A DNA stretch of 64,000 bases from Microvirga lotononidis (GTDB lineage Bacteria > Pseudomonadota > Alphaproteobacteria > Rhizobiales > Beijerinckiaceae), in NCBI RefSeq assembly GCF_034627025.1, contig NZ_CP141048.1:3050001-3114000 (forward strand), written 5' to 3'. The notes beneath the pieces were generated by a model that was given only the letters and a program-made list of their open reading frames with translations, ran no database searches and was not told the DNA's origin. Below are positions 5,511-18,752 of the stretch, piece by piece. Position 1 is the stretch's first letter. Each line of letters starts with the position of its first letter. Both the position numbers and the translations under genes were made by a program.

Positions 5511-6331
5511 TCCGCGGCCGCCTTGACGGACGTCGGGCCGCCCAAAAAGCCTTCGATGGCGGCGATCGTTTCCTCGGGGGCGCTCAGGTTCGGGCAATGG
5601 CCGGTCGCGTTCATCAGGACGAGCTCGCTGTCGGGCAGGTTCTGGTGCATGTAGCGCCCGACCGCTTCGGGGGCAATGACGTCCTGCGAGCACTGGAGGA
5701 TGAGCGCCTTCGTCGCGACCTTGCTCAGGTCGGCCCGATTGTCCGACAGGAAGGTCACGCGGGCAAAGTGCTTGGCGATCTCGGGATTGGTGCGGCAGAA
5801 GCTGTTGGTGAGTTCCTCGCCGAGCTGCGGCCGGTCGGGATTGCCCATGATGACCGGGGCCATGGTGCTCGACCAGCCCAGATGGTTGCTGTCGAGGAAG
5901 TCGAGCAAGCCCTCGATGTCCTCCGGCCTGAACCCGCCGACATAGTCCCCGTCGTTGATGTAGCGGGGCGACGGGCCGATCAGCACGAGCCGGTCGAACC
6001 GCTCCGGCTCCTGGATGGCGGCCAGCGCCCCGATCATGGCGCTGACCGAGTGGCCCACGAAGACGACGTTCGTCAGGTCCAGCTCGCGGCAGATCGCCAG
6101 CACGTCGTCGGCGTAGCCCTGGAGCGTGCCGTGCCGCGCGGCGTCGAAGGCGGCCGCATCCGACTGGCCATGCCCGACATGGTCGAAGAGAACGACCCTG
6201 TAGCGATCCTCGAAGGCGGGCGTGATGAAGCGCCACATGTTCTGGTCGCAGCCATAGCCATGGGCAAACAGCATGGGCTGCCGACTTTGGCCGATGACCT
6301 TGACGTTGTGTCGTTGAAGAACGGCGGACAT
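5507..6331 (-). CDS. RsbQ-like alpha/beta hydrolase
   Basis: A 274-residue alpha/beta hydrolase closest in pattern to Bacillus RsbQ and the plant D14/KAI2 receptors. The oxyanion region is MLFAHGYGCDQNMWRF. The catalytic triad reads as Ser95 (VGHSVS), Asp217 (CSQDVI) and His245 (ATGHCP), and the VLFDHVGHGQSD strand is also typical. In Bacillus, RsbQ is required for the PAS phosphatase RsbP to respond to energy stress. Here the stop overlaps the start of a PAS hybrid kinase, which suggests an analogous hydrolase-PAS pair feeding a phosphorelay rather than a PP2C phosphatase. The ligand is unknown. Confidence 0.88.
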   Translation of the reverse strand: MSAVLQRHNVKVIGQSRQPMLFAHGYGCDQNMWRFITPAFEDRYRVVLFDHVGHGQSDAAAFDAARHGTLQGYADDVLAICRELDLTNVVFVGHSVSAMIGALAAIQEPERFDRLVLIGPSPRYINDGDYVGGFRPEDIEGLLDFLDSNHLGWSSTMAPVIMGNPDRPQLGEELTNSFCRTNPEIAKHFARVTFLSDNRADLSKVATKALILQCSQDVIAPEAVGRYMHQNLPDSELVLMNATGHCPNLSAPEETIAAIEGFLGGPTSVKAAAE

Positions 6332-6502
6332 GGGCGCTCCGTGCCATCCAAAGATCGAGAGGAGGGGGCTTGCGTCCCGCGACGGTGCGAGCTTTGCAGG
6401 TCTGGGCCCAATCTAGGGATCCGGGCTCCCGTGTCAACGCTGCGGAAATCCCTCGCCGCTCCGGCGCCCCGGACGACGGCGAGGGACGCGTCCCCGAGTG
6501 GT

Positions 6503-6712
6503 TCAGCCGTAGGGGAAGGGGCGCTGGCCGAACACTCTCTTGGGCGGCATCGGGAGTTCCTTGAAGGTCTCGCCCACGACGGCGCTCTTGATGGTCTCGC
6601 GGCTCACGCCGTAATCCCTGGAGAGCTTGCCCCATTCCCGCTCGCCCGATGCGAATCTCAGGCGAGCCTCGAGAACCTGCTCGGTGGTCAGCTTCCGCTT
6701 TCGGCTCTGCAC
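6503..6712 (-). CDS. Small helix-turn-helix protein
   Basis: A 69-residue basic protein. Residues 5-45 read as a resolvase/HNH-style HTH (KLTTEQVLEARLRF, then KLSRDYGVSRETIKSAV with the GVSRETI recognition helix). A proline-rich tail follows. GTG at 6712 is chosen because GGGAG lies seven bases before it; ATG 6733 would add seven residues but lacks a ribosome site. It could be an orphan regulator or a remnant of a mobile-element protein. The 170 bases between it and the hydrolase hold no clear gene. Confidence 0.5.
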   Translation of the reverse strand: MQSRKRKLTTEQVLEARLRFASGEREWGKLSRDYGVSRETIKSAVVGETFKELPMPPKRVFGQRPFPYG

Positions 6713-6720
6713 GGCGAATC

Positions 6721-6740
6721 TCCCTAAGAACATATAGGGA
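6721..6740. repeat. TCCCTA-N8-TAGGGA palindrome at the start of the HTH gene
   Basis: Six-base arms TCCCTA (6721-6726) and TAGGGA (6735-6740) enclose eight bases and cover the ribosome-binding region of the small HTH protein. It could be an autoregulatory operator; six-base arms are also possible by chance. Confidence 0.25.
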
Positions 6741-6862
6741 ACGTCTCATGAGGCCTCGGGGTCCGTCGAGAGGCCGAAGGGGAGCCTGTGGAGAGCGTGG
6801 ATAAGCACCGTCCGCAGGGCGTTTCCAGATGAGTCCGAACCGAGCTTCCCCCGCCGGGCGCC

Positions 6863-7111
6863 TCAATGGGATTTCGGGGTGAACTGAAGCGCCTCGAGAA
6901 ACGGAAATTCCAGGATGATCTCGTCCAGGTCGTCCTTCACCTCGATGTGGGATGACGCCCAGTTCACCGGCTTGTCGAACTGCGTGTCCATCAGGTTCCG
7001 CGCCATGGCGCTCGCGACTTCCCAGGCCTGGTCGGGATCGCGCAGCGACTGCCCCTCCGGGTCGCTGAGAACGTCCTCACCGATGTGGATGTTGAAGAAG
7101 TACTTTGGCAT
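6863..7111 (-). CDS. DUF6894 family small protein
   Basis: An 82-residue protein beginning MPKYFFNIHIGEDVLSDPEG, the signature of the DUF6894 family that is very common in Methylobacteriaceae and Bradyrhizobiaceae: a Y/F-rich strand, then a conserved D-P-E/D-G turn and a helix (DPDQAWEVASAMARNL). Function is unknown; the family often occurs in many copies per genome. ATG 7111 is preceded by AGAGAAG. The longer frame to 7294 is not supported. A damaged relative lies at 10130-10212, and similarity between the two loci extends about 60 bases upstream of the start. Confidence 0.75.
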   Translation of the reverse strand: MPKYFFNIHIGEDVLSDPEGQSLRDPDQAWEVASAMARNLMDTQFDKPVNWASSHIEVKDDLDEIILEFPFLEALQFTPKSH

Positions 7112-7342
7112 GGCTTCTCTCTGCACGGATGCCCCGTGAGAGCCAAGTGCCCTTAGGGATGAGAGTTCCATGGGGAGAACCGAGGCCCCTCCTCGGGTTC
7201 TCTTCCGACGCTTACGTTCGGTCGACTTCAGCTCCATGCCGATGGCGGACGTCGCGAGGGTGCATGGCGGGTGAAGACACAGGCGCCCACTCACGGAGTG
7301 GTCGCGGCTCGGGGCGGGCTATTCGCCCGCCCCTTGCTTCGT

Positions 7343-9034
7343 TCAGTTGCCCGGCTTGTTGCGGATGGCCTGCTCGACCTGCCGCTTGACGGCCTCCAGG
7401 TTGAAGGACGCCGGGTCCTGCATCGGCGGGTAGTCGATCGCCGTGGCCGCCAGCTTCGCGACCTCCTGCTGGACGGAGACGAAGCGCCAGAACTCGCGAG
7501 CGTAGAAGTCGTTCATGTAGCCGCCGCCGAGATCGTTCAGGCTCTGGCCGCCGATCGACGGCGTCCGCTCGAACGGGTCCTGCCGGATGTTCACCATGAC
7601 CGGCATGTCCGTCGTCACCTTCGGCCCGGGCCAGCCCTGCGGCTGCTGGAAGAACTGGAACTTGAAGTCGCCGATGCGCACTGCGCCGAGCTGCGGGCCG
7701 CCGAAGTAGAAGAACTCGTTTCGGGCCGACGGGCCGTTGCCTTGCAGGAGCGCGAGCTGGTTGTAGCCGTCGAGATGGTTCTTGTAGCTGCGGTCGCCGA
7801 GCTGCACGCCCTTGAGGAGTTGGTCGGTGATGCTCGGATTGCCGGCCGCGGCGAGCAGCGTCGGGAACCAGTCGAGCGCCGAGAAGACGCCGTTCTCGAC
7901 CGCACCGGGCTTGACCTTCCCCGGCCAGCGGATGATCGCGGGGACGCGGAAGCCGCCCTCGTTGACCGTTCCCTTCGTTGCCTTGAACGGCGTCATGCCG
8001 CCGTCGGGCCACGTGAACACCTCGGCGCCGTTATCGGTGGTGAAGATGACGATCGTGTTGTCGGCCTGGCCTGAATCCTCCACGCATTTGAGCAGGGAGC
8101 CGACGCTGTCGTCGAGCTGCGCCATGCCGGCCTCTTCGAGACCGTAATTGCTCGTGCTGTTCATCAGCGCCTGATACTTCGGCGACAGGAACGTCCAGAC
8201 ATGCATGCGGGTGGTGTTGTGCCAGACGAAGTACGGCTTTCGGTCGGTCTTGGCCTTGTCCATGAAGTCGCACGATGCCTTGACCAGCACCTCGTCGAAG
8301 GTGGTCATGTCGTACTTCGCCTTCGGGGTGATGTCGTGCATGTTCGGCACGTTGGTCATGTTGGGATAGGGCGCGAGCGGTCCTTCGTCGACGATCCGCT
8401 GCTTGCCGATCCGGCCCCAACGCGGCTGCTCGGTCTGATCGTCCGTGTCGGTCGCATAGGTGTGCAGCAGATTGCGCGGGCCGACCTTGTCGCGATAGGA
8501 CTGGTCGTCCGGGAACGAGTACCAGTACGGGTCGGACATCGCGTCGAGATGGTACAGGTAGCCGAAGAACTCGTCGAAGCCGTGCAGCGTCGGCAGGTAC
8601 TTGTTCAGGTCGCCGAGATGGTTCTTGCCGAACTGGCCGGTCGAATAGCCCTGCGCCTTGAGGGCGGAGGCGATCGTCGCGGCCTTGTCCGGCATGCCGA
8701 CATCGGCGCCCGCCTGGCCGACGGTGGTGAGTCCCGTGCGCAACGGGATCTCGCCGGTGATGAAGCTCGCCCGGCCCGCCGTGCAGCTCGCCTCGGCGTA
8801 GTAATCGGTGAACATCATGCCCTGCGACGCCAACCGGTCGAGGTTGGGCGTCTTGCCCGACATGATGCCCCGATGATAGGCGCCGATGTTGAACCAGCCG
8901 ACATCGTCGCCCATGATGACGAGGATGTTCGGCCTCTGCTGCGTGCCGGAGGGTGGTGCCTGCGCCAGAGCGGGCGCGATGGCCCACGCGCCGCAGAGCA
9001 TGGACGCTCCGCAGATCAGTGTTTTCAGTTTCAT
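7343..9034 (-). CDS. Secreted arylsulfatase
   Basis: A 563-residue type I sulfatase. Residues 1-25 form a signal peptide (hydrophobic core then PALAQA), so the enzyme is periplasmic. The metal-site Asp pair is in MGDDVGW (residues 43-44). The formylglycine motif CTAGR starts at Cys84, the C-x-A/P-x-R form modified by formylglycine-generating enzyme. Lys137 and His139 (FGKNHLGD) and Asp334/Asn335 (TTDNGAE) complete the usual calcium and sulfate ligands. It hydrolyses sulfate esters; the large size and HGFDEFFGYLYHL stretch fit the arylsulfatase group. GGAGAGGAAG precedes ATG 9034. No sulfatase-maturing gene is adjacent. Confidence 0.92.
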   Translation of the reverse strand: MKLKTLICGASMLCGAWAIAPALAQAPPSGTQQRPNILVIMGDDVGWFNIGAYHRGIMSGKTPNLDRLASQGMMFTDYYAEASCTAGRASFITGEIPLRTGLTTVGQAGADVGMPDKAATIASALKAQGYSTGQFGKNHLGDLNKYLPTLHGFDEFFGYLYHLDAMSDPYWYSFPDDQSYRDKVGPRNLLHTYATDTDDQTEQPRWGRIGKQRIVDEGPLAPYPNMTNVPNMHDITPKAKYDMTTFDEVLVKASCDFMDKAKTDRKPYFVWHNTTRMHVWTFLSPKYQALMNSTSNYGLEEAGMAQLDDSVGSLLKCVEDSGQADNTIVIFTTDNGAEVFTWPDGGMTPFKATKGTVNEGGFRVPAIIRWPGKVKPGAVENGVFSALDWFPTLLAAAGNPSITDQLLKGVQLGDRSYKNHLDGYNQLALLQGNGPSARNEFFYFGGPQLGAVRIGDFKFQFFQQPQGWPGPKVTTDMPVMVNIRQDPFERTPSIGGQSLNDLGGGYMNDFYAREFWRFVSVQQEVAKLAATAIDYPPMQDPASFNLEAVKRQVEQAIRNKPGN

Positions 9035-9334
9035 CGCTCTTCCTCTCCATTCCGCCCCTGGCCGAAGAAGGTTTTGTCATTCGTCGTTGCTGGTGTTCCG
9101 GATCGAGGCGGGACGCGCGCTCCCTCGCGTGTCTCCGGCGGTCGGTGTGATGTCGACGACGGTCATGGCCGTCCCTCGATCCTGGCGCGCCGCCAGTGTC
9201 GCACGGCGGCCGGTCGGCGGGATATCGGGGTCTGCCCTGAACCCGCTGGAGGAAAACCCTGATTTTCACCCTGGCACTTCGGATCGGCGCCGGGGCGATC
9301 AGCAGTGACGGGCGCGTTCCTCGAGGCCGGGCCC
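9035..9334. other. 300-base gap upstream of the sulfatase
   Basis: It must contain the sulfatase promoter. I see no convincing repeat or hairpin, and only a 29-codon minus-strand frame (starting MTVVDITPTAGD) that I cannot support as a gene. Confidence 0.4.
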
Positions 9335-9718
9335 TCACGCCTCCGGCCGGCGGAACGCGCCCTGGACCACCGATCCGCGCCCGATCAGCTCCGGCGGCAG
9401 GTTTTCCCAATCCACCGCCTCGGGTTCGCGGCCGTGCCGATAGACCATCCAGCGGCCCTGCGGGTCCTGGTACACGCCGTAGATCAGGGGGCCGCGCCAC
9501 TCGCCGTGGCCGAGCGACCCGCCGTGGCCGCGCCACTCGCTGCGGCCGTGCCGCTCGCTGGGCGAGGGGCGGACGAGATCGCGCAGGCCCCGCATCACCA
9601 GCCACGCGAGGCCGAGCAACGTCACCGGCCCGGCGACGAGCCACAGGGCTTGGATGAATTCGGGCCAGGTGTGGAATTTCGAGAGCCAATCGGCCCACAG
9701 GCTGTACGGCTGGTCCAT
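9335..9718 (-). CDS. Small membrane-anchored hypothetical protein
   Basis: A 127-residue protein with ATG at 9718 and GAGGGAG upstream. Residues 20-46 hold one hydrophobic segment (FIQALWLVAGPVTLLGLAWL). A basic, glycine-rich linker follows (residues 52-74), then a soluble tail with GVYQDPQGRWMVYRHGREPE. The tail looks like a small beta-sheet module. No family is recognised. It runs in the same direction as the sulfatase, 300 bases upstream of it, and is probably independent. Confidence 0.55.
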   Translation of the reverse strand: MDQPYSLWADWLSKFHTWPEFIQALWLVAGPVTLLGLAWLVMRGLRDLVRPSPSERHGRSEWRGHGGSLGHGEWRGPLIYGVYQDPQGRWMVYRHGREPEAVDWENLPPELIGRGSVVQGAFRRPEA

Positions 9719-10129
9719 CGCGGCAACTCCCTCGAGCGAGACGACCACCAGCGGAAGCTGGTGGCCGGGGAGTTCAGAAGCCGTACGCAGACGACCGCGC
9801 TGCCCTTTCGGCCTTCGCCTTGAACATGCGACAGCGCCTCCCCGGCCATAGGGCTGGGAAGGCATCGTTAGCGGCTGATGCTTGCCGCTGCGTAAGGGGT
9901 TCTGACGCCCCAGAACCGGGTGCGCCCGGTTCCGGTGACGAGATAACACGTAACAGTGGCGAGGGGTCAATGGGGCGCTACCAGGCGGGCCGCACCTCCG
10001 TCATCCCGGGCCGCGCAGCGGAACCCGGTACCCATAACCGGCGACGGTGCATGAAGAGGCGCAACGCCGGGCGTTCTTTTCCTCCAGGTCGTGCTTATGG
10101 GTTTCCACGCCTTCGACGCGCCTCTTCGG
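9719..10129. other. Gene-free stretch with hairpins
   Basis: A perfect hairpin GAACCGGG-TGCG-CCCGGTTC sits at 9913-9932. From about 9999 a sequence starting GTCATCCCGGGCCGCGCAGC resembles one arm of the palindromic elements near 13372 and 47186, suggesting a partial copy. I see no gene on either strand; reading frames here have no plausible start or domain. Confidence 0.45.
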
Positions 10130-10212
10130 GTCGGGATCGCGCAGGGACTGCCTATCAGGGGGGGGCTGAGAACGTCCGCGCCGATATGGATGTTGAAGAA
10201 GTATTCTGGAGC
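10130..10212 (-). pseudogene. Decayed DUF6894 copy
   Basis: Reading from 10212 gives APEYFFNIHIGADVLS, the start of a DUF6894 protein nearly identical to the gene at 6863-7111. The ATG of the intact gene (CAT at 7109-7111 on the plus strand) is replaced by AGC at 10210-10212. A run of eight G residues (10158-10165) adds two bases relative to the intact copy and breaks the frame before the conserved QSLRDPD segment. Beyond that, similarity is lost, so the 3' half is missing. Similarity continues upstream to about 10275, matching 7112-7175, so this is a duplicated locus. Confidence 0.7.
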
Positions 10213-10662
10213 GGCTTGTCTCTGCATGGACGGCGCTTGAGAGCCAAGTTCTCTTGGCGATGAGAGTTCAATGAGAAACGACGCCTGTCCTCTTGGACGC
10301 AGGCGTTTGTCTGAAAGGTGCTAGCAAAAGGTGCTGTCGCGTCTGGTGCCCAGGAGAGGACTGGTTCCCTTTGCCGCTAAGTACGCATAATCAAAGGATA
10401 TTTCTAGCTGGTCGACTGTAATTGTTGAACAGTTGTGTTGTAGTACGAGAACTGCTGCTCTGTAAACCTCGAAGGCGACCCACCTCGTCAGCGGCCTCAC
10501 TGATAATGTGCTTTGTTACGTGTGAGTTTGATAGGTTGGTTAATCGGGCTTGTATGTCTCTCGAAACCCGCCTCATGCAATGCGTAATTAGTACCAGCTT
10601 GCAGGCAGAACCGGTTTCATAGTAACGTTTGATTTCCTCGTACGCTTTACCTTTTAGGGCTA
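10213..10662. other. Gene-poor junction of the AT-richer region
   Basis: It holds the duplicated upstream segment of the DUF6894 locus (to about 10275), a stem ACGCCTG/CAGGCGT near 10284-10309 followed by TTTG, the tRNA-like fragment at 10344-10362, and then AT-richer DNA. A 95-codon minus-strand frame (10391-10678) overlaps the next gene and is not supported. Confidence 0.4.
10344..10362 (-). other. Fragment matching the 3' end of a tRNA-Leu
   Basis: On the minus strand the 19 bases read AGTCCTCTCCTGGGCACCA. From memory this equals the T-arm/acceptor 3' end, including CCA, of a common bacterial tRNA-Leu whose acceptor begins GCCCAGG. The rest of the tRNA is absent. Such orphan 3' ends mark attachment sites of integrative elements; no integrase or complete tRNA-Leu is in the window. 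Confidence 0.5.
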
Positions 10663-11319
10663 ATGGCTTTCTCATCAAAAATCGAAACCCAAGTCTCCGA
10701 AATTCCGGCAGGCGCGTTGAAAGCTGTCCGTCGGGGTTTTGCTATAGCTTCCTCACTGAGCCCCCAGCAGCGAGAGCAATTCTACAGTGACCTTTTCGAG
10801 GCGCTGGAGTCTGGCGTCTCATTTGTTGACCTGAAAGTGGTTGCGGAAGCAGCGGACCTGACCAGATCACAAGCAGCTGATCTTGTTAGTGCCGTATCCA
10901 GTGTAATTGGGCTTATCTCGGAAACTGAGGTCACTGCGGAGGAGTTCGTCGAGGTTGCCCGCGGCCGCCTTTTCGATGAAGAGCAGACTGATCTTGTTAC
11001 AGCTCTTGCCAGGGCCGTCACAGACCGGCGAAGCCCATTGAGCAGTTCTTTAGAGAGGAATTCGCTGGCAAATGAAACACTTCCCTCGCTCCGAGCGTTC
11101 GACGTAACCGTAGATTTGAGACCGCGTTTCGCAGGAGACCAAATCGTCGATGCTGTCGCAGTGGGCCTGCTTCACGTGGATACCGACAGTGAGCCTGAGA
11201 TTTGGCTTCAAGTCTCCCGCGGAGACATCGAACGTATGCGTAATGCTTTGGACAGAGCCCAGAAGCAGATGGCATCGGCCGAAGAGCTATTTCGGAAAGA
11301 CTCCTCAGGCGCGAAATAA
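10663..11319 (+). CDS. Soluble protein of unknown function, COMM-domain-like C-terminus (first gene of AT-rich cassette)
   Basis: A 218-residue soluble protein with no signal peptide or membrane span. Residues 15-135 are predicted nearly all helical (SPQQREQFYSDLFEALESG, then LKVVAEAADLTRSQAADLV). Residues 140-205 look like beta strands and a final helix: LRAFDVTVDLRPRF, VAVGLLHVD, IWLQVSRGDIERMRNALDRA. That order and size recall eukaryotic COMMD proteins (helical N-domain plus COMM domain), but this is a by-eye resemblance, not a search result. The stop TAA shares its last A with the ATG of the next gene (TAATG), so translation is coupled. Codon use is AT-richer than its neighbours, suggesting transfer. 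Confidence 0.65.
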   Translation: MAFSSKIETQVSEIPAGALKAVRRGFAIASSLSPQQREQFYSDLFEALESGVSFVDLKVVAEAADLTRSQAADLVSAVSSVIGLISETEVTAEEFVEVARGRLFDEEQTDLVTALARAVTDRRSPLSSSLERNSLANETLPSLRAFDVTVDLRPRFAGDQIVDAVAVGLLHVDTDSEPEIWLQVSRGDIERMRNALDRAQKQMASAEELFRKDSSGAK

Positions 11320-11588
11320 TGAACAACTTCGAGGTACCGCTAATCGTCTATGTCGCGGTCGGAACTGCTGTGTGTTTTTGCAAGCTCCGGGACGACGGAC
11401 GGAAAATCTATGGCCTCTCGCCGATTTTAACTCGATACATCGGAAACGAGAACCTGAGGCTTGCCGTCGAGGTATTAGTATTCATGTTAATTGGGTGCTT
11501 ATTATCTCATGGCTTAGTTCAGCCTACCACCGCACCGCAGGCATTTGCGGCCGGGCTGGCGTGGACTGGCTTGGCATCAGGAAAATGA
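11319..11588 (+). CDS. Small membrane protein, second gene of AT-rich cassette
   Basis: An 89-residue protein. An N-terminal hydrophobic segment (VPLIVYVAVGTAVCFCKL, residues 6-23) is followed by a short charged loop (RDDGRKIYG), a second span (AVEVLVFMLIGCLLSHGLV, about residues 49-67) and an alanine-rich third hydrophobic stretch near the end. It has TTA codons, which are rare in the high-GC neighbours. Its start overlaps the stop of the preceding gene, and the next gene begins 13 bases after its stop, so the three form one operon. No family is recognised; size and topology resemble small effector or holin-like membrane proteins, which is only a suggestion. Confidence 0.55.
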   Translation: MNNFEVPLIVYVAVGTAVCFCKLRDDGRKIYGLSPILTRYIGNENLRLAVEVLVFMLIGCLLSHGLVQPTTAPQAFAAGLAWTGLASGK

Positions 11589-11601
11589 GTCGGAGTAGCT
11601 T

Positions 11602-12195
11602 ATGAAAACGCTTCGAGACCGTAACCTGCGCCGCTACATTTTTAATGCCTGCATAGTGTCAGCAGGGCTAGCTTGCCTACTTGCTCAGTATGTCCCAGGG
11701 AGCGACTGGGTCGCAGGCTCTGTGGCAGTTCTAAGCGCCGTTATCGCGATTGGAGTCCTAGTAACACGTTCGAGTGAACAGCACGTTCAGGCAGAAGGTT
11801 CAGTAGAGGCGACAGACTATACTGACGCGCAGGGTTTAGTTAGACAACGTTGGGCAAGTTTAATTGCTGAACGGTACTGGTCTGACACGTATAATGCTTT
11901 TTTAGATCACCCGAAGAAGCCTGATTTAGTTTGGGGCGAAAGACTTATTACGCGCCTAGATCAAGGTAGGCGGTCCAACATGGTAGTGCTCAAGAAAGAA
12001 ATTCTACGTCGCAAAGACCCCTTGAAGCATAAAGGTGATGATACCTCCAATCAACTCAACTTCGGGTCAATGACTGTTGAGATTATTGGAGATGAGTTAA
12101 AGGTACGCATGCGTGGTACTCGGAAAATCAGCACTCCTCTTGTTGAGGCAGGAGAGGCGGAAGCCTCTTATCAAAACGCTCGGGTACTACACTGA
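11602..12195 (+). CDS. Two-span membrane protein with cytoplasmic domain, third gene of AT-rich cassette
   Basis: A 197-residue protein with GGAG seven bases before ATG 11602. A basic N-terminus (KTLRDRNLRR) precedes two hydrophobic spans (about residues 12-29 and 36-55: VAGSVAVLSAVIAIGVLVTR). The remaining 140 residues are hydrophilic and mostly helical. The layout, a two-span hairpin followed by a helical cytoplasmic domain, is like SLATT-type membrane effectors of bacterial conflict systems, but no diagnostic motif confirms this. It contains several TTA leucine codons. The last 30 residues may be affected by a frame change, because another open frame continues past the stop to 12328. Confidence 0.6.
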   Translation: MKTLRDRNLRRYIFNACIVSAGLACLLAQYVPGSDWVAGSVAVLSAVIAIGVLVTRSSEQHVQAEGSVEATDYTDAQGLVRQRWASLIAERYWSDTYNAFLDHPKKPDLVWGERLITRLDQGRRSNMVVLKKEILRRKDPLKHKGDDTSNQLNFGSMTVEIIGDELKVRMRGTRKISTPLVEAGEAEASYQNARVLH

Positions 12196-12633
12196 ATATA
12201 ACTACATGAACCGGACTAGCGAGGGGATACTAGCGATAGGGCCCCTTATTTTTTGGCCAAAAATTGTGAAGTGGGTTGTCTACTCGGGAGCGAAGTGGAG
12301 TTCCCCCGTACCCCGTCCTAGCGTCTGAACGCAGAAGCATCAATTTATCCGGCCCGCACGCTAATCCTGTCTTTTTACATTCACAACGAACCCTGTTGAT
12401 TGGAAAGTAACCATCGCCAGGACGGATACCGCTTCTCTTCAAAACTTACTCGCCGCACTCAAATCACTATTAGAGCGCGTCCCAGCCAAAACGGTCTCTC
12501 CCCGCCATGCCCTCGCTTATCGCAAGTATTCACGTCTTTCTCCCGGCATTGGTGCAAGGACCTGGATGGCCGGAACAAGTCCGGCCATGACGGAAATCGT
12601 GCCGGGGCGGCTGACGACATGCGCGATCCTCCC
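12196..12633. other. Trailing edge of the AT-richer region
   Basis: AT-richer DNA continues to about 12480. There are short open frames on both strands, including VDWKVTIARTDTASLQNLLA near 12390-12450, which may be the tail of a broken gene; none has a supported start. A copy of the GGCCGG-type palindrome lies at 12564-12593. No complete gene is seen. Confidence 0.35.
12564..12593. repeat. Dispersed palindrome, GGCCGG family
   Basis: ATGGCCGG-AACAAGT-CCGGCCAT is a perfect eight-base stem with a seven-base loop, followed by GACGG. Close copies occur at 20780, 23304, 47085, 58152 and 63281, always between genes. Confidence 0.65.
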
Positions 12634-13293
12634 TCAAATCCCCTCGCCATTCATGAACCACCATTCCCGGATCTCCCAGCCGTCGCCTTCCTCGCGGTTG
12701 ATGCGCTCCAGATGGGCGGCGAGTTCGTCGCGCAGTTCGTGGAGGCTGCGGCGGGGCTTGGGGGCGTCGATCTCGTATTCGTAGACGGGGGCGTCGGCGG
12801 CGGGCGGGGACGGGCGGGCGTGCCGGTCGATCTCGCCGAGGGTGCGGGTGAGGCGGGCGAGGGTCTGGAGGGAGCGTTCGGCGCGCTCGATGGGCTGGGT
12901 CTCCAGGATTTCGGCATGGCGATCCGCGAGGCTCCAGAGCCGCTCGACGATGTTCTCGCGCGGATGGGCAGAGGCGGCCGAGCGGCGGGGCGGGCGCGGG
13001 GGCTCGGAGGGCGGGGCGTCGTTGGGCCGGCGCGCCGGCGCCGAGCTGCGTCGGGCGATAGCGGGCGGGGGAGGGGCCGCGCCATCGGGGCGCTTCCAGC
13101 CGCCTTCCTTGGCGTAGCGCGAGATGGTCGCGGGCGAGATGCCGAGTTCCTGGCCGATCTTCTTGAACGGGCGGGTGGTGCATTCCACCCATTCGCGCAG
13201 CAGGGCGACCCGCTCCGGCGGGAGCTTCACCCGGAACCCCGAGGGGCTCGCGTGATCCCGGGCGGGCGGGACAGGGGAGGATGGGGAGGTCAT
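12634..13293 (-). CDS. HTH-domain hypothetical protein
   Basis: A 219-residue protein. Residues 22-68 hold a helix-turn-helix (LPPERVALLREWVE, then KKIGQELGISPATISRYAKE) resembling the N-terminal domain of phage terminase small subunits or Hin-type recombinases. A long proline/arginine-rich linker (70-110) leads to a helical region (about 110-145) and an acidic C-terminus with EIREWWFMNGEG. The family appears in Methylobacteriaceae-like genomes as an uncharacterised protein. It is probably DNA-binding. ATG 13293 is the first in-frame start, with weak GAAG upstream. Confidence 0.65.
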   Translation of the reverse strand: MTSPSSPVPPARDHASPSGFRVKLPPERVALLREWVECTTRPFKKIGQELGISPATISRYAKEGGWKRPDGAAPPPPAIARRSSAPARRPNDAPPSEPPRPPRRSAASAHPRENIVERLWSLADRHAEILETQPIERAERSLQTLARLTRTLGEIDRHARPSPPAADAPVYEYEIDAPKPRRSLHELRDELAAHLERINREEGDGWEIREWWFMNGEGI

Positions 13294-13371
13294 GGCAATC
13301 GGTCTTCACAATGCAGGAACAGAACAAGAACATTATAATGTGAGGCGGGGCGCGGTCAAGGTTGGTGCAAC

Positions 13372-13514
13372 CGTCATTCCGGGGCGAGCGTGAGCGAGAA
13401 CCCGGAACCCATAGTCAGGACGTCTCAAGAAGGAGCGAGCGGCGTTTCGCCTTCTGCACTGTCAGCGGTTATGGTTCCGGGTTCGCGCCGAAGGCGCGCC
13501 CCGGAATGACGGGG
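13372..13514. repeat. 140-base imperfect palindromic element
   Basis: The left arm begins GTCATTCCGGGGCG and continues to GAACCCGGAACCCATA. The right arm reads, in inverse orientation, GTCATTCCGGGGCG to GAACCCGGAACCATAA. The arms enclose about 60 bases. It is MITE-like in form but carries no transposase. It lies between the HTH gene and the GIY-YIG gene. Confidence 0.6.
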
Positions 13515-13558
13515 AGCGCGCGCCGTGGGACGCCAGCGATGAACAGAGCGGCCGTGGT

Positions 13559-13846
13559 TCACCGGTTCAAGGTCGGGTACAGATCCGACCAGTCGGGGTT
13601 CATCTCCTCGATCAGGGTGATCTTCCAGTCGCGGCGCCACTTCTTCAGGCTCTTCTCGCGGGCGATGGCCTCGCCGATCCGGTCGTGGACCTCGTACCAG
13701 ACGAGACGGCAGACATCGTAGCGGGCCGAGAAGCCGGGAACGACTTTGCGTTTGTGCCGGTCGACTCGCCGCGCAAGATCGTTCGTCACACCCAGGTAGA
13801 GCGTGCCGTGGCGGCGGCTCGCGAGGAGATGGACAGAGTAGGGCAT
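13559..13846 (-). CDS. GIY-YIG nuclease family protein
   Basis: A 95-residue UvrC/URI-type GIY-YIG protein of the single-domain YhbQ-like group. The first strand is YSVHLLASR, where GIY is replaced, and GTLYLGVTNDLARRV carries the YIG-equivalent YLG plus the conserved Arg. RRVDRHKRK and the C-terminal AIAREKSLKKWRRDWKITLI are typical; Glu in AREKSLK is the expected metal-binding residue. The start is placed at ATG 13846. Function in the cell is unclear for this family, which is often multicopy in rhizobia and may be inactive on DNA. Confidence 0.8.
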   Translation of the reverse strand: MPYSVHLLASRRHGTLYLGVTNDLARRVDRHKRKVVPGFSARYDVCRLVWYEVHDRIGEAIAREKSLKKWRRDWKITLIEEMNPDWSDLYPTLNR

Positions 13847-13944
13847 GGGCTTCTCGCAGTGCGACACCGCTATGATACATTGTGGCATCGTCACCGCAAC
13901 GTTGAGCCTTCCCGCCCGGCCATCCTTCCCGTGGAGACCCTCCC

Positions 13945-14052
13945 GTTGGAACGCCCGTTCCAGCCGTTCCAACCGTTCCAGCGCCGTTCCAGCGGGGCGT
14001 TCCAGGGATTGCCGTTGGGGAAGACCCTGGAACGTTTCATCACCGTTCCAAG
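13945..14052. repeat. Cluster of GTTCCA/TGGAAC hexamers, copy 1
   Basis: Eight occurrences of GTTCCA or its complement lie within about 105 bases (13947, 13957, 13966, 13975, 13986, 13999, 14028, 14045). CGTTCCAGGG (13998-14007) and CCCTGGAACG (14025-14034) form a ten-base hairpin. It lies just upstream of the DMT transporter. A matching cluster is at 16117-16251. Confidence 0.75.
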
Positions 14053-14130
14053 GGTGATCGATCAGTTATCATCATTTGTGCTGATGCATGGCTGAGCGTA
14101 TTCGAGGAGGGTCGAAAGGGACGGAATGCC

Positions 14131-15060
14131 ATGAGCCACGCTAGCGCCGCCATGCCGGGTCAAAGCCTGAAAGGGATCGACGGGACGACGCTGGGGCTCT
14201 ACGCCGCCACGGTGTTCCTGTGGGGCGTGAGCTGGATCGGGATCCGGGCGCAGCTCGGCGTGGTGGCGCCGGAGATGTCGGTGCTGTGGCGGTTCCTGCT
14301 CGCGGCCGCGCTCATGTGGGCCTGGGTGCTCGCCACCGGGCACCGGGTGCGCTTTCCGGCGGCCGATCACCTGCGCTTCGCCGCGGTGGGGTGCTGCCTG
14401 TTCTCGTTCAACTTCATCTCGTTCTATTACGGCGGTTTGAGCGTGCCGTCCGGGCTGCTCTCGGTGGTGTTCTCGCTCGCCTCCGTGTTCAACCTCGTGC
14501 TCGGCTTCCTCGTGTTCCGGCAGAAGGTCGAGCCGCGGGTGGCGCTCGGCGGCGTGATCGGGGTGGCGGGAATCGCGTTCCTGTTTTGGCCGGAAATCAC
14601 CGGCGCGGGCTTCAACGCGGCGGCCCTCAAGGGGCTGGCGCTCTGCGTGATGGGCACGCTGTTCTTCTGCTCGGGCAACATGATCTCGACAGTGGTGCAA
14701 CGCCGGGGCGTGCCGCTTCTCTCGGCCACCGCCTGGGGCATGACCTATGGCTGCGCGGTGCTGCTGGCGCTGAACCTGTTGCGCGGCAACGCCTTCATCA
14801 TCGAGCCGACCGTGAAGTACGTCGGCTCGCTCGTCTATCTCTCCATCGGCGCGTCGGTGCTGGCCTTCATGTCGTATCTCACCCTGCTGCGGCGGCTCGG
14901 GGCCGCGCGGGCGGGCTATGCCACGGTGCTGTTTCCCATCGTGGCGCTCACGGTCTCGACCCTGATCGAGGGCTATGTGTGGACGCCGCTCGCCATGATC
15001 GGCGTCGTGCTGGCGCTCGCCGGCAACGTGCTCGTGCTGCGCCGGCCCGCGACGAAGTGA
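14131..15060 (+). CDS. EamA/DMT family transporter
   Basis: A 309-residue inner-membrane protein with about ten hydrophobic spans in two repeated EamA halves. The first begins LGLYAATVFLWGVSWIGIRA with MSVLWRFLLAAALMWAWVL; the second has LSATAWGMTYGCAVLLALN and ends LAMIGVVLALAGNVLVLRRP. Members export metabolites such as amino acids or purines, or import sugars; the substrate cannot be told. It converges with a LysR regulator whose stop lies seven bases beyond this stop. The upstream region carries the GTTCCA cluster. Confidence 0.88.
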   Translation: MSHASAAMPGQSLKGIDGTTLGLYAATVFLWGVSWIGIRAQLGVVAPEMSVLWRFLLAAALMWAWVLATGHRVRFPAADHLRFAAVGCCLFSFNFISFYYGGLSVPSGLLSVVFSLASVFNLVLGFLVFRQKVEPRVALGGVIGVAGIAFLFWPEITGAGFNAAALKGLALCVMGTLFFCSGNMISTVVQRRGVPLLSATAWGMTYGCAVLLALNLLRGNAFIIEPTVKYVGSLVYLSIGASVLAFMSYLTLLRRLGAARAGYATVLFPIVALTVSTLIEGYVWTPLAMIGVVLALAGNVLVLRRPATK

Positions 15061-15066
15061 GCGGGA

Positions 15067-15957
15067 TCACTCGGCGGCGAGCGGCGCCATCGGGCGGGTC
15101 GAGCCGAGATTGTCGAGCGACTGCTTGATGTGGAAGCCGAGCGCGTCCGCGAGCGGGTTCTCCTCGCCGCGCGCGCGGATCAGGCCGATCTTGCACGAGG
15201 GCAGGGCCGGGAAGCCATCGGACGGCCCGAGGATCCGCATGCCGGGCCGCACGGCGCTCTCCGGGAGAACCGAGACCGCGAGGCCCGCCAGGACGGCCGC
15301 GCCCACGGCGGTCGAGTGATAGCTCACATAGGCGACGCGGAAGGCGCGGTCCGCGCTCTCCAGGGCTTCCGTGGCCGAGTGGCGCCAGTCGCAGTTCGGG
15401 CGGCCGAGCGCCAGGGGGACGGGGCTTTCCTCGTGCACCCCGTGACGGGCCGAGGTCACCCAGAGCAGCTGCTCGATGCGCACGATCTCGGACGGGCCGC
15501 GCCGGTCCACATGGGTGATGATCGCGAGGTCGAGGTCCCCGTGCTGCACCCGCTCGATCAGGTTGTGGCTCGGCTCGCACACCACCGTCACCTCGGCCTT
15601 CGGGTTGGAGCGCGAGAAGCGCGCCAGGATCTCCGGCAGGTAGCGGTCGGCGTAATCGTCGGGGAGCCCCAAGCGCACCCGGCCGGTGAGCTCGTGCTCG
15701 TTGAAGGAGGCCATGCATTCCGCGTTCAGCCGCACGATCCGGCGCGCATAGTCGAGCAGGCGCTCGCCCTCGTCGGTGAGCTTCGACAGGCGCCCGTCGC
15801 GCTCGAAGATCGCCCGGCCGACCCGGTCCTCCAGCCGCTTCATCTGCATGGACACCGCGCTCTGCGTCTTGTGCACGATCTCCGCCGCGCGGGTGAACGA
15901 CCCCGTATCGGCGATGGCCACGAAGGTCCGGAGCTGGTCGATATCAAGCAGATGCAT
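15067..15957 (-). CDS. LysR family transcriptional regulator
   Basis: A 296-residue LysR protein. The N-terminal winged HTH covers residues 1-62 (LDIDQLRTFVAIADTGSFTR, AAEIVHKTQSAVSMQMKRLE, then IFERDGR). The LysR substrate domain follows from about residue 88 (GRVRLGLPDDYADRYLPEIL). ATG 15957 is chosen because GAGGG lies eight bases upstream and the domain begins there; the frame runs to 16014. It is tail-to-tail with the DMT transporter, so it is not its classic divergent regulator. The promoter area before it leads directly to the second TGGAAC cluster. Confidence 0.88.
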   Translation of the reverse strand: MHLLDIDQLRTFVAIADTGSFTRAAEIVHKTQSAVSMQMKRLEDRVGRAIFERDGRLSKLTDEGERLLDYARRIVRLNAECMASFNEHELTGRVRLGLPDDYADRYLPEILARFSRSNPKAEVTVVCEPSHNLIERVQHGDLDLAIITHVDRRGPSEIVRIEQLLWVTSARHGVHEESPVPLALGRPNCDWRHSATEALESADRAFRVAYVSYHSTAVGAAVLAGLAVSVLPESAVRPGMRILGPSDGFPALPSCKIGLIRARGEENPLADALGFHIKQSLDNLGSTRPMAPLAAE

Positions 15958-16116
15958 GGCAACACCCTCATCATCAATCAAGTTGATGATACATATCTCA
16001 AACAATCGTTTCAAGTGATGATAATCATCTGGTACACATCTCCCAGCCCTTGGAAATTCATAATGATTTTCAAGGAGTTAAATGGAAGCTCAGTAGCATG
16101 AGCTTCCATGCGAATT

Positions 16117-16251
16117 TGGAATGCCGTGGAATATCCTCTTGGAACGGAGGGGTGAAACGCCCTGGAACGTTCCAGGGGATTCTCCTGGAACGCCCTGGAA
16201 CAGGTGCTGGAACACCTGGAACGCAGGAAAAACCCGTTCCACGGCATTCCA
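16117..16251. repeat. Cluster of TGGAAC/GTTCCA hexamers, copy 2, inside a 15-base inverted repeat
   Basis: TGGAATGCCGTGGAA (16117-16131) is repeated inverted at 16237-16251. Between and at the arms lie eight TGGAAC/GTTCCA hexamers (16140, 16163, 16169, 16186, 16196, 16208, 16217, 16236), including the perfect 16-base palindrome CCTGGAACGTTCCAGG at 16161-16176. It sits upstream of the DUF1127 gene. Confidence 0.8.
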
Positions 16252-16289
16252 GAGCCAGCGCATTGAACGTGAGAGCAAGGAGACCTCCG

Positions 16290-16616
16290 ATGAACCGGTC
16301 TGCATTTTCGTCCATGACCTTCTCAGGAACGACCACTCTGGGGCTGCTGGCCCGCGCCCTCACGAATCTCGTCGTCGCGCTGAAGCACCGCCGAGAGGTC
16401 AAACATCTCGCCGAGTTCGACGACCGGATGCTCGCGGATATCGGCCTCACCCGCAGCGACGTGACGAGCGCGCTGGACGAGCCTCTCATCCGCAACCCGT
16501 CATGGGTGTTGGTTCGAAGTGCGGAGCGACACTCCCGTGCCGAGAGGCCCCATTATGCAGCGAAGCCGGTCCGACCCGTGGTTCCGATGGTGAGGCCGAT
16601 CAAGCGCTGCGCCTAG
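16290..16616 (+). CDS. DUF1127 family protein
   Basis: A 108-residue protein. Residues 38-60 carry the DUF1127 signature (REVKHLAEFDDRMLADIGLT, then RSDV). It is preceded by a leader with hydrophobic character (TTLGLLARALTNLVVAL) and followed by a basic tail longer than usual for the family (most members are 45-70 residues). Alphaproteobacterial DUF1127 proteins are implicated in RNA-based phosphate and carbon regulation. AAGGAG precedes ATG 16290. The dense TGGAAC cluster lies 40 bases upstream and may be its control region. Confidence 0.78.
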   Translation: MNRSAFSSMTFSGTTTLGLLARALTNLVVALKHRREVKHLAEFDDRMLADIGLTRSDVTSALDEPLIRNPSWVLVRSAERHSRAERPHYAAKPVRPVVPMVRPIKRCA

Positions 16617-17335
16617 TCCTTCTTGCCCTGGCTCTGCCAGGCATCGGTGAAGATCGACTGGAGGGACGCGAGATATTGCAACTGCATCTCGCGTCCTTTT
16701 TCCATCATCTCGTCGAAGGACGGGGAGGAGGGCGGCTCCTCCTGCGGGGCTTCCGGCGGGGGCGCCTTGAGAACGCTCGCCATCATGTCCTCGAACGGGT
16801 TGGCATGCTCCTTCTCAGGTGTCGCCGCCGTCATCCATCCGGCCCAGAGATCGGCCCAAGGGTTCGCGCTGCCGGGCTTGTCATTCGAGGATGCGAATGA
16901 TTGCAGGGCCTGTGCGTGGGCGGCCATCCAGTGCGACATGCCCCCGGCCATGATGCCGGCCAGGAGCGGCAGCAATTGCTGCATGGTCTCGGTGCTGATC
17001 CCCGCGTAATCGGCGGCCTGATGCGCCACGCGGCGGCTGACCTCGTCGGAGCCGAAAAGCTGGTCCAGCAGTCGTCTGCCCTCCTGCTGCGCCTGCGGCG
17101 TGAAGGGACTGCCGGCCGCCTGCCAGAAATTCTGGTAGGCTCCGCTCATCATCGGTTGGAAGAAGCGGGCCGGGTTGCTGGACGCGGTGGCGTGCTGCAG
17201 CGCCATGGCGAAGGCGGGCATGAAAGCCGCCATGGTTTTCTGGGTCTGATCGCCCGACAGGTTGAACTGCTGTGCGAGGGAGGCCAGGGCTGCACTGGTC
17301 TGCGCTTGGCGCATCAGGTCGAACCAGTTGAACAT
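16613..17335 (-). CDS. DUF937-like hypothetical protein
   Basis: A 240-residue soluble protein rich in Ala, Gln and Met. It begins MFNWFDLMRQAQTSAALASL and contains a helical repeat region (LAQQFNLSGDQTQKTMAAFM; RVAHQAADYAGISTETMQQL; LLPLLAGIMAGGMSHWMAAH) typical of DUF937 (YidB-like) proteins. The C-terminal quarter is proline and glutamate rich. Function is unknown; some relatives associate with polyhydroxyalkanoate granules, but nothing here shows that. Its 3' end overlaps the end of the DUF1127 gene by four bases, tail to tail. It may be transcribed with the MATE gene upstream. Confidence 0.75.
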   Translation of the reverse strand: MFNWFDLMRQAQTSAALASLAQQFNLSGDQTQKTMAAFMPAFAMALQHATASSNPARFFQPMMSGAYQNFWQAAGSPFTPQAQQEGRRLLDQLFGSDEVSRRVAHQAADYAGISTETMQQLLPLLAGIMAGGMSHWMAAHAQALQSFASSNDKPGSANPWADLWAGWMTAATPEKEHANPFEDMMASVLKAPPPEAPQEEPPSSPSFDEMMEKGREMQLQYLASLQSIFTDAWQSQGKKD

Positions 17336-17372
17336 GACAGCCTCCTCCGGGTGAAACGCTGCGGTTGATGTC

Positions 17373-18752
17373 TCACACCGCCGGGATAGCTTGCCTCTCC
17401 AAACGCCGGATTGTCCAGAACGCAGTGATGATGGCCGCGATCCCGAACACCACGGACCCTGCTCCGATCCCCACGAGAGCCCCCTTGGGCCCGCCGATCT
17501 CGGCGCCGAAATAGGCGAAGGGGATCATCCCCAGGGTGGCCCGGCCCCAGTTGAAGAAGGTGGAAAGCAGGGGATAGCCAAGGTTGTTGAACGAGGCATT
17601 CGCCACGAAGACGAGGCTGACGAAGAACCAGATGAAGCCGCTGAGCTGGCAGAAGACCTGGACGATCTCGGCAGTCGCCGGAGGGGCATTGAAGGCTCGC
17701 GTAATCGGAACCTGCACGAGGACGAGCATCAGCCACACGCTGCCCACATAGACGATGGTGAAGGTCAGCGCGTCCCTGAGGGTCTGCTTCATGCGGTCGT
17801 AGCGCTGCGCGCCCCAGTTCTGCCCGAGCACCGGTCCGATGGCGCCGGCCAGCGCGAAGACACCCGCGAAGGCCACGGGGGTGACGCGGTCGATGATCGC
17901 GGAGGCGGCAATCGCCTGATCGCCGAACCGCGCCATCACGCCCGTGAAGAACGCGTTGGCCGCGGGAGCCGCGATGTTGGTGAGAATGGCCGGGATGGCG
18001 ATGGCGAAGAACGGTCGCGCGTCGGTGAAGAGCGCAGCCCAGTCGGGGCGCCTCAGCAGGTCGTGAGCGCGGGTGAGATAGAGAAAGCTCACATAGACAT
18101 AGGCGACGCGTGCGATGTTGATGGTGACCGCCGCGCCGTTGGTCTTGAGGCCCAGTCCGAAGATGAGGATGGGGTCGAGGACGACCGTGACGGCGGCCAC
18201 CGACAAGGTGGCATACATGCTGCGCTTGGCGTCGCCCGCCGCGCGAAGGACGGTGGAGAACGCCATGCCGATGGCCATGAGAACGTTGGTCGGCAGCGCG
18301 ATCCAGAGGAAGTTCCTTGCCACCTCGTAGGTCTGCTCGCTGGCGCCGATCATGGTCAGGATCGTGGGCAGCAGGGGCAGGATGATCAGGCTGACGACGG
18401 CCGCGACGGCCGCCATGAGGATGCTGCACGATGTCGCCAACCGGCGAGCATCGTCCGGCCTGCGCGCTCCGAGAGACCGGGACACGAGCGCTCCGATGGG
18501 AATCATCAGGCCCACATTGATGGAGATCGTGAAGAACATCACGACGGTGGCGAGCCCGACGCCGGCCGTCAGGCTCGGGTCGTTCAGCCACGATATGTAG
18601 AGAAGCGACACGAGATCGACGATGAAGATCGCCACGAGGCCGGCCGCTCCCGTTCCCGTCATGACGAGAACATGGCGCATGGTCGAGCCGACGACGAAGC
18701 GCGGAGGCTCGTTCGGAGCCTCGGCCGTTTTCACGGAAGGATTGGAATCCAT
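17373..18752 (-). CDS. MATE family efflux transporter
   Basis: A 459-residue protein with about twelve hydrophobic spans in two MATE halves. VSLLYISWLNDPSLTAGVGL, IGALVSRSLGARRPDDARRL and LGQNWGAQRYDRM match the conserved MatE positions, the last two being the paired GA-R motifs. It exports cationic or organic compounds using Na+ or H+. The ATG (18750-18752) shares a base with the TAA stop of the upstream antiporter (TAATG), so the two are translationally coupled. A 12-residue hydrophilic N-terminus precedes the first span. The substrate is unknown. Confidence 0.9.
   Translation of the reverse strand: MDSNPSVKTAEAPNEPPRFVVGSTMRHVLVMTGTGAAGLVAIFIVDLVSLLYISWLNDPSLTAGVGLATVVMFFTISINVGLMIPIGALVSRSLGARRPDDARRLATSCSILMAAVAAVVSLIILPLLPTILTMIGASEQTYEVARNFLWIALPTNVLMAIGMAFSTVLRAAGDAKRSMYATLSVAAVTVVLDPILIFGLGLKTNGAAVTINIARVAYVYVSFLYLTRAHDLLRRPDWAALFTDARPFFAIAIPAILTNIAAPAANAFFTGVMARFGDQAIAASAIIDRVTPVAFAGVFALAGAIGPVLGQNWGAQRYDRMKQTLRDALTFTIVYVGSVWLMLVLVQVPITRAFNAPPATAEIVQVFCQLSGFIWFFVSLVFVANASFNNLGYPLLSTFFNWGRATLGMIPFAYFGAEIGGPKGALVGIGAGSVVFGIAAIITAFWTIRRLERQAIPAV

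Follow-up and report, generated by a model that had tools for sequence, protein, structure and literature searches.

A low-G+C cassette encoding a COMMD-like protein and two predicted membrane proteins in Microvirga lotononidis, a candidate phage-defence unit

A 64,000-nucleotide stretch of the Microvirga lotononidis genome (NZ_CP141048.1, positions 3,050,001 to 3,114,000; here termed the window) carries a compact trio of open reading frames, ORF1, ORF2, and ORF3 (Table 1), that code for a soluble protein likely related to the COMMD scaffold proteins and for two predicted membrane proteins. The lengths and tight order of the genes are as given in the initial annotation of this DNA, with a TAATG overlap at the ORF1/ORF2 junction and 13 bases between ORF2 and ORF3. 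The same source described ORF2 as multi-span; hydropathy predicts a membrane protein with two clear spans only.

The trio stands out in base composition. Positions 10302-12502 are 50.7% G+C compared with 64.9% for the window, and form its most AT-rich 2.2-kb stretch when scanned in 100-base steps; earlier hand counts of 23 of 60 G or C at 11461-11520 and 44 of 60 at 14221-14280 are correct. TTA codons, whose repeated use had been remarked on, account for 12 of the 504 trio codons (1 in ORF1, 6 in ORF2, and 5 in ORF3) compared with 7 of 12,802 in the window's large ORFs that are rich in G+C at the third codon position (GC3). Among 500 versions of 10302-12502 generated with a first-order Markov model, none has a 218-codon ORF or a second ORF of 197 codons, and the G+C contents at codon positions 1 and 2 (0.65 and 0.44 for ORF1, 0.54 and 0.43 for ORF2, 0.60 and 0.43 for ORF3) are similar to those of neighbouring known genes. 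Judged by length, codon-position G+C, and, for the first two, overlap, the three resemble genuine genes. A sigma-70-like promoter was looked for and not found, although this is a weak test in this organism. The three products have no significant match in Pfam, NCBIfam, or the models of known antiphage systems in PADLOC 2.0.0, where the best score (ORF3 residues 20-82 against PDLC00710, a two-transmembrane [2TM] model) is not significant at E 0.019. A structure model of ORF3 had a predicted local distance difference test (pLDDT) value of 42 and was set aside.

Table 1. Features of the trio and its surroundings in the window
Feature	Coordinates	Strand	Remarks
ORF1	10663..11319	+	218 aa, soluble COMMD-like protein
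Helical domain matching COMMD HN domain	10675..11067	+	ORF1 residues 5-135
COMM-like region	11089..11277	+	ORF1 residues 143-205
ORF2	11319..11588	+	89 aa, small membrane protein, two predicted spans
ORF3	11602..12195	+	197 aa, N-terminal two-span hairpin (residues 13-55) and predicted cytoplasmic domain
Left flank gene (QPYSLWADWL... protein)	9335..9970	-	Multi-copy in genus; outside trio
Decayed partial DUF6894 gene copy	10129..10292	-	80% identity to 7030-7194
tRNA-Leu(CAG) 3' fragment	10344..10362	-	19 identical bases; possible attachment-site remnant
Doubtful 95-codon ORF	10391..10678	-	Divergent from ORF1, overlaps ORF1 start by 16 bases
Dispersed repeat, right border	12503..12592	.	Also adjoins two other left-flank-gene copies
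Right flank gene	12634..13293	-	Weak helix-turn-helix (HTH) matches; edge of conserved synteny

The likely relationship of ORF1 to the COMMD proteins is suggested by both profile similarity and a predicted structure. An AlphaFold model of ORF1, built from the single sequence, has COMMD proteins as its top matches in the Protein Data Bank (PDB), including human proteins and a bacterial COMMD-like octamer, and these score far above all other entries. A COMMD profile aligns to residues 30-207 (E 4e-6), with a score reached by none of 200 shuffles and none of 332 other proteins, and the HN and COMM pieces each score separately (23.6 for the COMM piece alone, where 100 shuffles reach 18.2 at most). 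ORF1 has an N-terminal helical domain matching the HN domain of the COMMD family, and the model has a long helix at residues 186-214, although it does not resolve the three-stranded sheet of the COMM-like region.

PF07258 gives no match to ORF1, and the conserved COMM tryptophan (dWRvD motif) is absent, V148 being the aligned residue; the position is also V in the ORF1 of a second copy of the cassette, in genome G365 (AFDVTVD / AFDIVVD). A PDB profile search using both ORF1s gives no COMMD match. A profile of COMMDs together with ORF1 (A3) finds COMMD chains in the PDB but misses the bacterial 9q6a, and sequence searches can thus overlook such proteins. If ORF1 were unrelated to COMMD, its helical match would reflect a common arrangement; the silence of Pfam, the missing tryptophan, the single-sequence origin of the model, and the failure of profiles of Sorangium COMM-domain proteins to detect ORF1 fit this view, but the clear separation of COMMD entries in the structure comparison, the alignment of residues 30-207 far above its controls, and the separate scores of the two pieces make it improbable. 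Because the tryptophan is missing and PF07258 is silent, we refer to ORF1 as COMMD-like rather than as a family member.

COMM domains are described as dimerising and binding partner proteins, with several COMMDs associating with negatively charged membranes (PMC6089597), and the ring in the CCC complex is reported to contain ten COMMDs (PMC10187114). According to the latter, the 2023 Commander study, neither Archaea nor Bacteria yielded sequence homologues of the COMMDs, and the family arose on the eukaryotic stem (PMC10187114). Bacterial COMM proteins are now represented in the PDB; no papers on these were found among the matches listed, which cover open-licence PMC papers only. ORF1 differs from the eukaryotic COMMD1-10 proteins of CCC/Commander in the lost tryptophan and PF07258 match, and in being encoded with two membrane proteins, and is 13-17% identical in aligned parts to the bacterial COMMD-like MBK5214510 (PDB 9q6a/9q6c, an octamer). 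The COMM-domain proteins of Sorangium cellulosum (PDB 9za1/9za2, eight chains per entry) are bacterial and similar in size to ORF1, but unlike in the trio, a small membrane partner is absent at the five Sorangium loci viewed. We note that one Sorangium COMM-domain gene (L093, 4824-5504) follows a VgrG-like gene and has a DUF2169/pentapeptide gene downstream after one ORF, a context that suggests that some bacterial COMM proteins are linked to type VI secretion loci.

The second copy was found in a search of 117 family genomes with ORF2, which has a match (E 1.4e-5) in G365, a genome of another genus. The three G365 genes are in the same order as in the window, with ATGA and TGATG overlaps. The G365 ORF1 is 35% identical to the window ORF1 over 200 amino acids (E 4e-36), and is best kept in the COMM-like stretch (LPSL-AFD--VD-R-R, LHVDTD, SRGDIE); the ORF2 proteins are 27-28% identical. 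Between the third proteins no sequence similarity is seen, an equally high score being reached by 679 of 1000 shuffles, but the G365 protein has a predicted two-span hairpin at a like position and a long remainder, as in ORF3. The trio is thus supported as a three-gene unit present in two genera, with the third gene matched by architecture only. The initial annotation was right in seeing an undescribed unit here, and neither of the outcomes that it named as contrary, single homologues in housekeeping positions or a match to a metabolic family, was found. The G365 copies tested have no significant match in Pfam, PHROGs, or PADLOC (best PADLOC score for G365 ORF1, E 0.024).

The G365 cassette is 51% G+C compared with 61.5% for the remainder of a 15-kb stretch. 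It belongs to a segment of 10,329 bases whose sequence recurs, at 100% identity, within a 30-kb IMG/VR viral contig. Nearby are a head-protease-like gene, 4 kb downstream of the cassette, and, 5 kb upstream and immediately beyond that contig, a terminase gene. A Fic gene matching SoFic in PADLOC (1.6e-42) starts 0.3 kb beyond the cassette, separated from it by a single small ORF; Sofic is presented in PMC12249575 as a toxin of the abortive-infection type, AMPylating its targets. The window copy, in contrast, offers no more than an AT-rich insert with a tRNA-Leu 3' fragment. The trio has likely been spread by mobile elements. We also note that two unassigned genes, one on each side of the G365 cassette (L105, 5838-6266 and 13470-14234), are alike by eye (MMDIRQLLAGL.../MIDIRQIIAGL...).

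Relatives are otherwise sparse. Of 48 genus genomes, only the one studied here has a recognised ORF1; searched against all 48, the A3 profile gives, besides ORF1 itself, one weak partial match (G338, E 0.0082). A word-limited phmmer search of 5.8 billion proteins with ORF1, ORF1 region 126-211, and ORF3 returned only the queries themselves, as did an ORF1 search of 398 phylum genomes (E 0.005). ORF1 also gives 3 weak partial matches in 297 genomes of the order and 21 in 385 class genomes (E 0.05); 7 of the 21 were inspected and, being other genes or on the wrong strand, were taken as chance. ORF3 has one weak match, inside another gene, in 199 family genomes, and the only further ORF2 match in the 117 family genomes, a weak one (G369, E 0.009), sits in a urease locus. 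Across 119 genomes of the family and 385 of the class, PF07258 has no match over the cut-off and 3 and 1 weak matches, respectively. Neither tblastn of ORF1, ORF3, and G365 ORF1 in plasmids and phages, nor tblastn of the G365 third gene and blastn of the insert in plasmids, gives a match, and tblastn of ORF2 in plasmids and phages gives weak matches only. Contig scans with ORF1 alone or the ORF2 pair, and viral-contig scans with ORF2 and ORF3, found nothing. Two DNA-pattern scans yielded 74 viral stretches, with a clear relative encoded only in the G365 provirus.

Both flank genes are present within 8 kb in 5 of 26 genus loci examined (G332, G305, G337, G342, and G341), some of the 26 being cut by contig ends, and the content between the flanks differs by eye in each of the five. 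The G332 slot codes for a protein matching NsnA (1.2e-61) and PD-T4-2_A (1.7e-32) together with a RiboL-PSP HEPN protein, and PD-T4-2 is reported to defend the strain it comes from against T4 (PMC9519451). In the other four, none of the nine products tested matches PADLOC. The DNA downstream of right-flank-gene homologues was surveyed at 25 loci; of the products there, 14 picked by eye at seven loci were compared with PADLOC, and matches came only from L019 (one of two products) and L060 (a methyltransferase and Vsr, at a locus with the right flank only); a general defence hotspot is thus not shown. We also note, in other genus genomes, cytosine methyltransferase and Vsr genes downstream of one right-flank-gene homologue (L060, 2841-4655) and a lower-G+C YaaC-like gene after another (L065, 623-1816).

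We see roughly equal chances for and against the trio being a mobile three-gene unit in which a COMMD-like scaffold sits on an ORF2/ORF3 membrane complex, probably for phage defence. A phage-related role is the best guess, given the mobility and scattered occurrence of the trio, the divergence of its third gene, and the nearby defence genes, and retention of the third protein's architecture with loss of detectable similarity would fit pressure from changing phage targets. The initial annotation suggested that the trio could be a phage-defence or conflict system made of a soluble sensor and small membrane effectors. The soluble nature holds but the COMMD-like character was missed, and it makes the unit more like a scaffold on a membrane complex than a generic sensor; the conflict-system setting is plausibly right, with the case for defence being circumstantial, from the viral contig and SoFic gene of G365 and the NsnA/PD-T4-2-like gene in one of the five slots. 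RexAB and the 2TM effectors of CBASS exemplify defence cassettes of two or three genes whose effectors are small membrane proteins, and the trio resembles them in its soluble partner, small membrane proteins, mobile setting, and defence neighbour, but differs in lacking significant PADLOC matches.

By analogy with known COMMD assemblies, ORF1 may dimerise through its COMM-like region and form a ring, as the octamer of the bacterial COMMD-like protein would suggest, and may dock on ORF3 at the latter's predicted cytoplasmic domain, on the inner membrane, or on both, with ORF2 completing the membrane part of the complex. Phage infection might then alter the ORF1-membrane assembly, and the ORF2/ORF3 part could in turn disturb the membrane or block the phage. 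We propose still more tentatively, as something rather short of an even prospect, that bacterial proviruses and islands carry an antiphage device built of a COMMD-like ring, docked on the membrane, and two membrane proteins dedicated to it.

The trio could alternatively be a lysogenic-conversion cassette of proviruses, in which ORF2 and ORF3 block DNA entry or lysis by rival phages, with the COMMD-like protein as organiser, and the provirus rather than the cell is protected. The location in a viral contig, the phage genes within 4-5 kb, and the small membrane proteins favour such superinfection exclusion, but inspection by eye showed no phage gene beside the window trio and 50,697 phage records gave no convincing relative, and we regard it as unlikely. 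We give a similarly small chance to a role apart from phages, as a regulator or assembly factor of membrane proteins, in which ORF1 would control the amount, sorting, or activity of an ORF2/ORF3 complex, perhaps part of a channel or transporter, and the trio is an accessory trait. COMMD proteins are described as binding membranes and serving transmembrane cargo traffic (PMC6089597), which would suit this role. The presence of ORF1 in a single genus genome, the low G+C, the viral-contig location, and the SoFic neighbour speak against it. A toxin-antitoxin-like addiction module, with either ORF2 or ORF3 as the small membrane toxin and cytosolic ORF1 restraining it, would suit the tight coupling, overlapping genes, small membrane proteins, and mobile setting, but is very improbable given the silence of NCBIfam and PADLOC and the rarity of oligomeric scaffolds of 218 residues among antitoxins.

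The trio's COMMD-like component was not expected, and an antiphage role would be surprising for a family reported absent from bacteria in 2023; if true, the core fold of the eukaryotic Commander complex would also be at work in prokaryotic conflict systems. The trio is a candidate defence family invisible to PADLOC models, one copy of it being close to a defence gene and part of a viral contig, and its overlap-coupled operon of a COMMD-like protein and membrane partners offers a small testable model of COMMD assemblies at membranes.

The borders of the insert agree with the gene decay and tRNA 3'-end fragment noted initially. The decayed copy derives from the DUF6894 gene at 6863-7294, and the fragment equals the final 19 bases of the genome's intact tRNA-Leu(CAG), beginning exactly at the tRNA 3' end; it is a possible attachment-site remnant. 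No integrase was seen by eye among the ORFs of 6000-18000, a region for which no dedicated integrase scan was made. The 95-codon ORF between the fragment and ORF1 lacks a coding-like G+C pattern. Upstream of the left flank gene is an sRNA-Xcc1-like match (9756-9846, minus strand; 34.9 bits against a gathering score of 53), in a region conserved with many left-flank-gene copies. On a different contig, a 20-base segment (G000:C2:492171-492190; L090, ~8172) matches the tRNA-Leu 3' end at 19 of 20 positions without an accompanying tRNA, and is possibly also the remnant of an integrated element.
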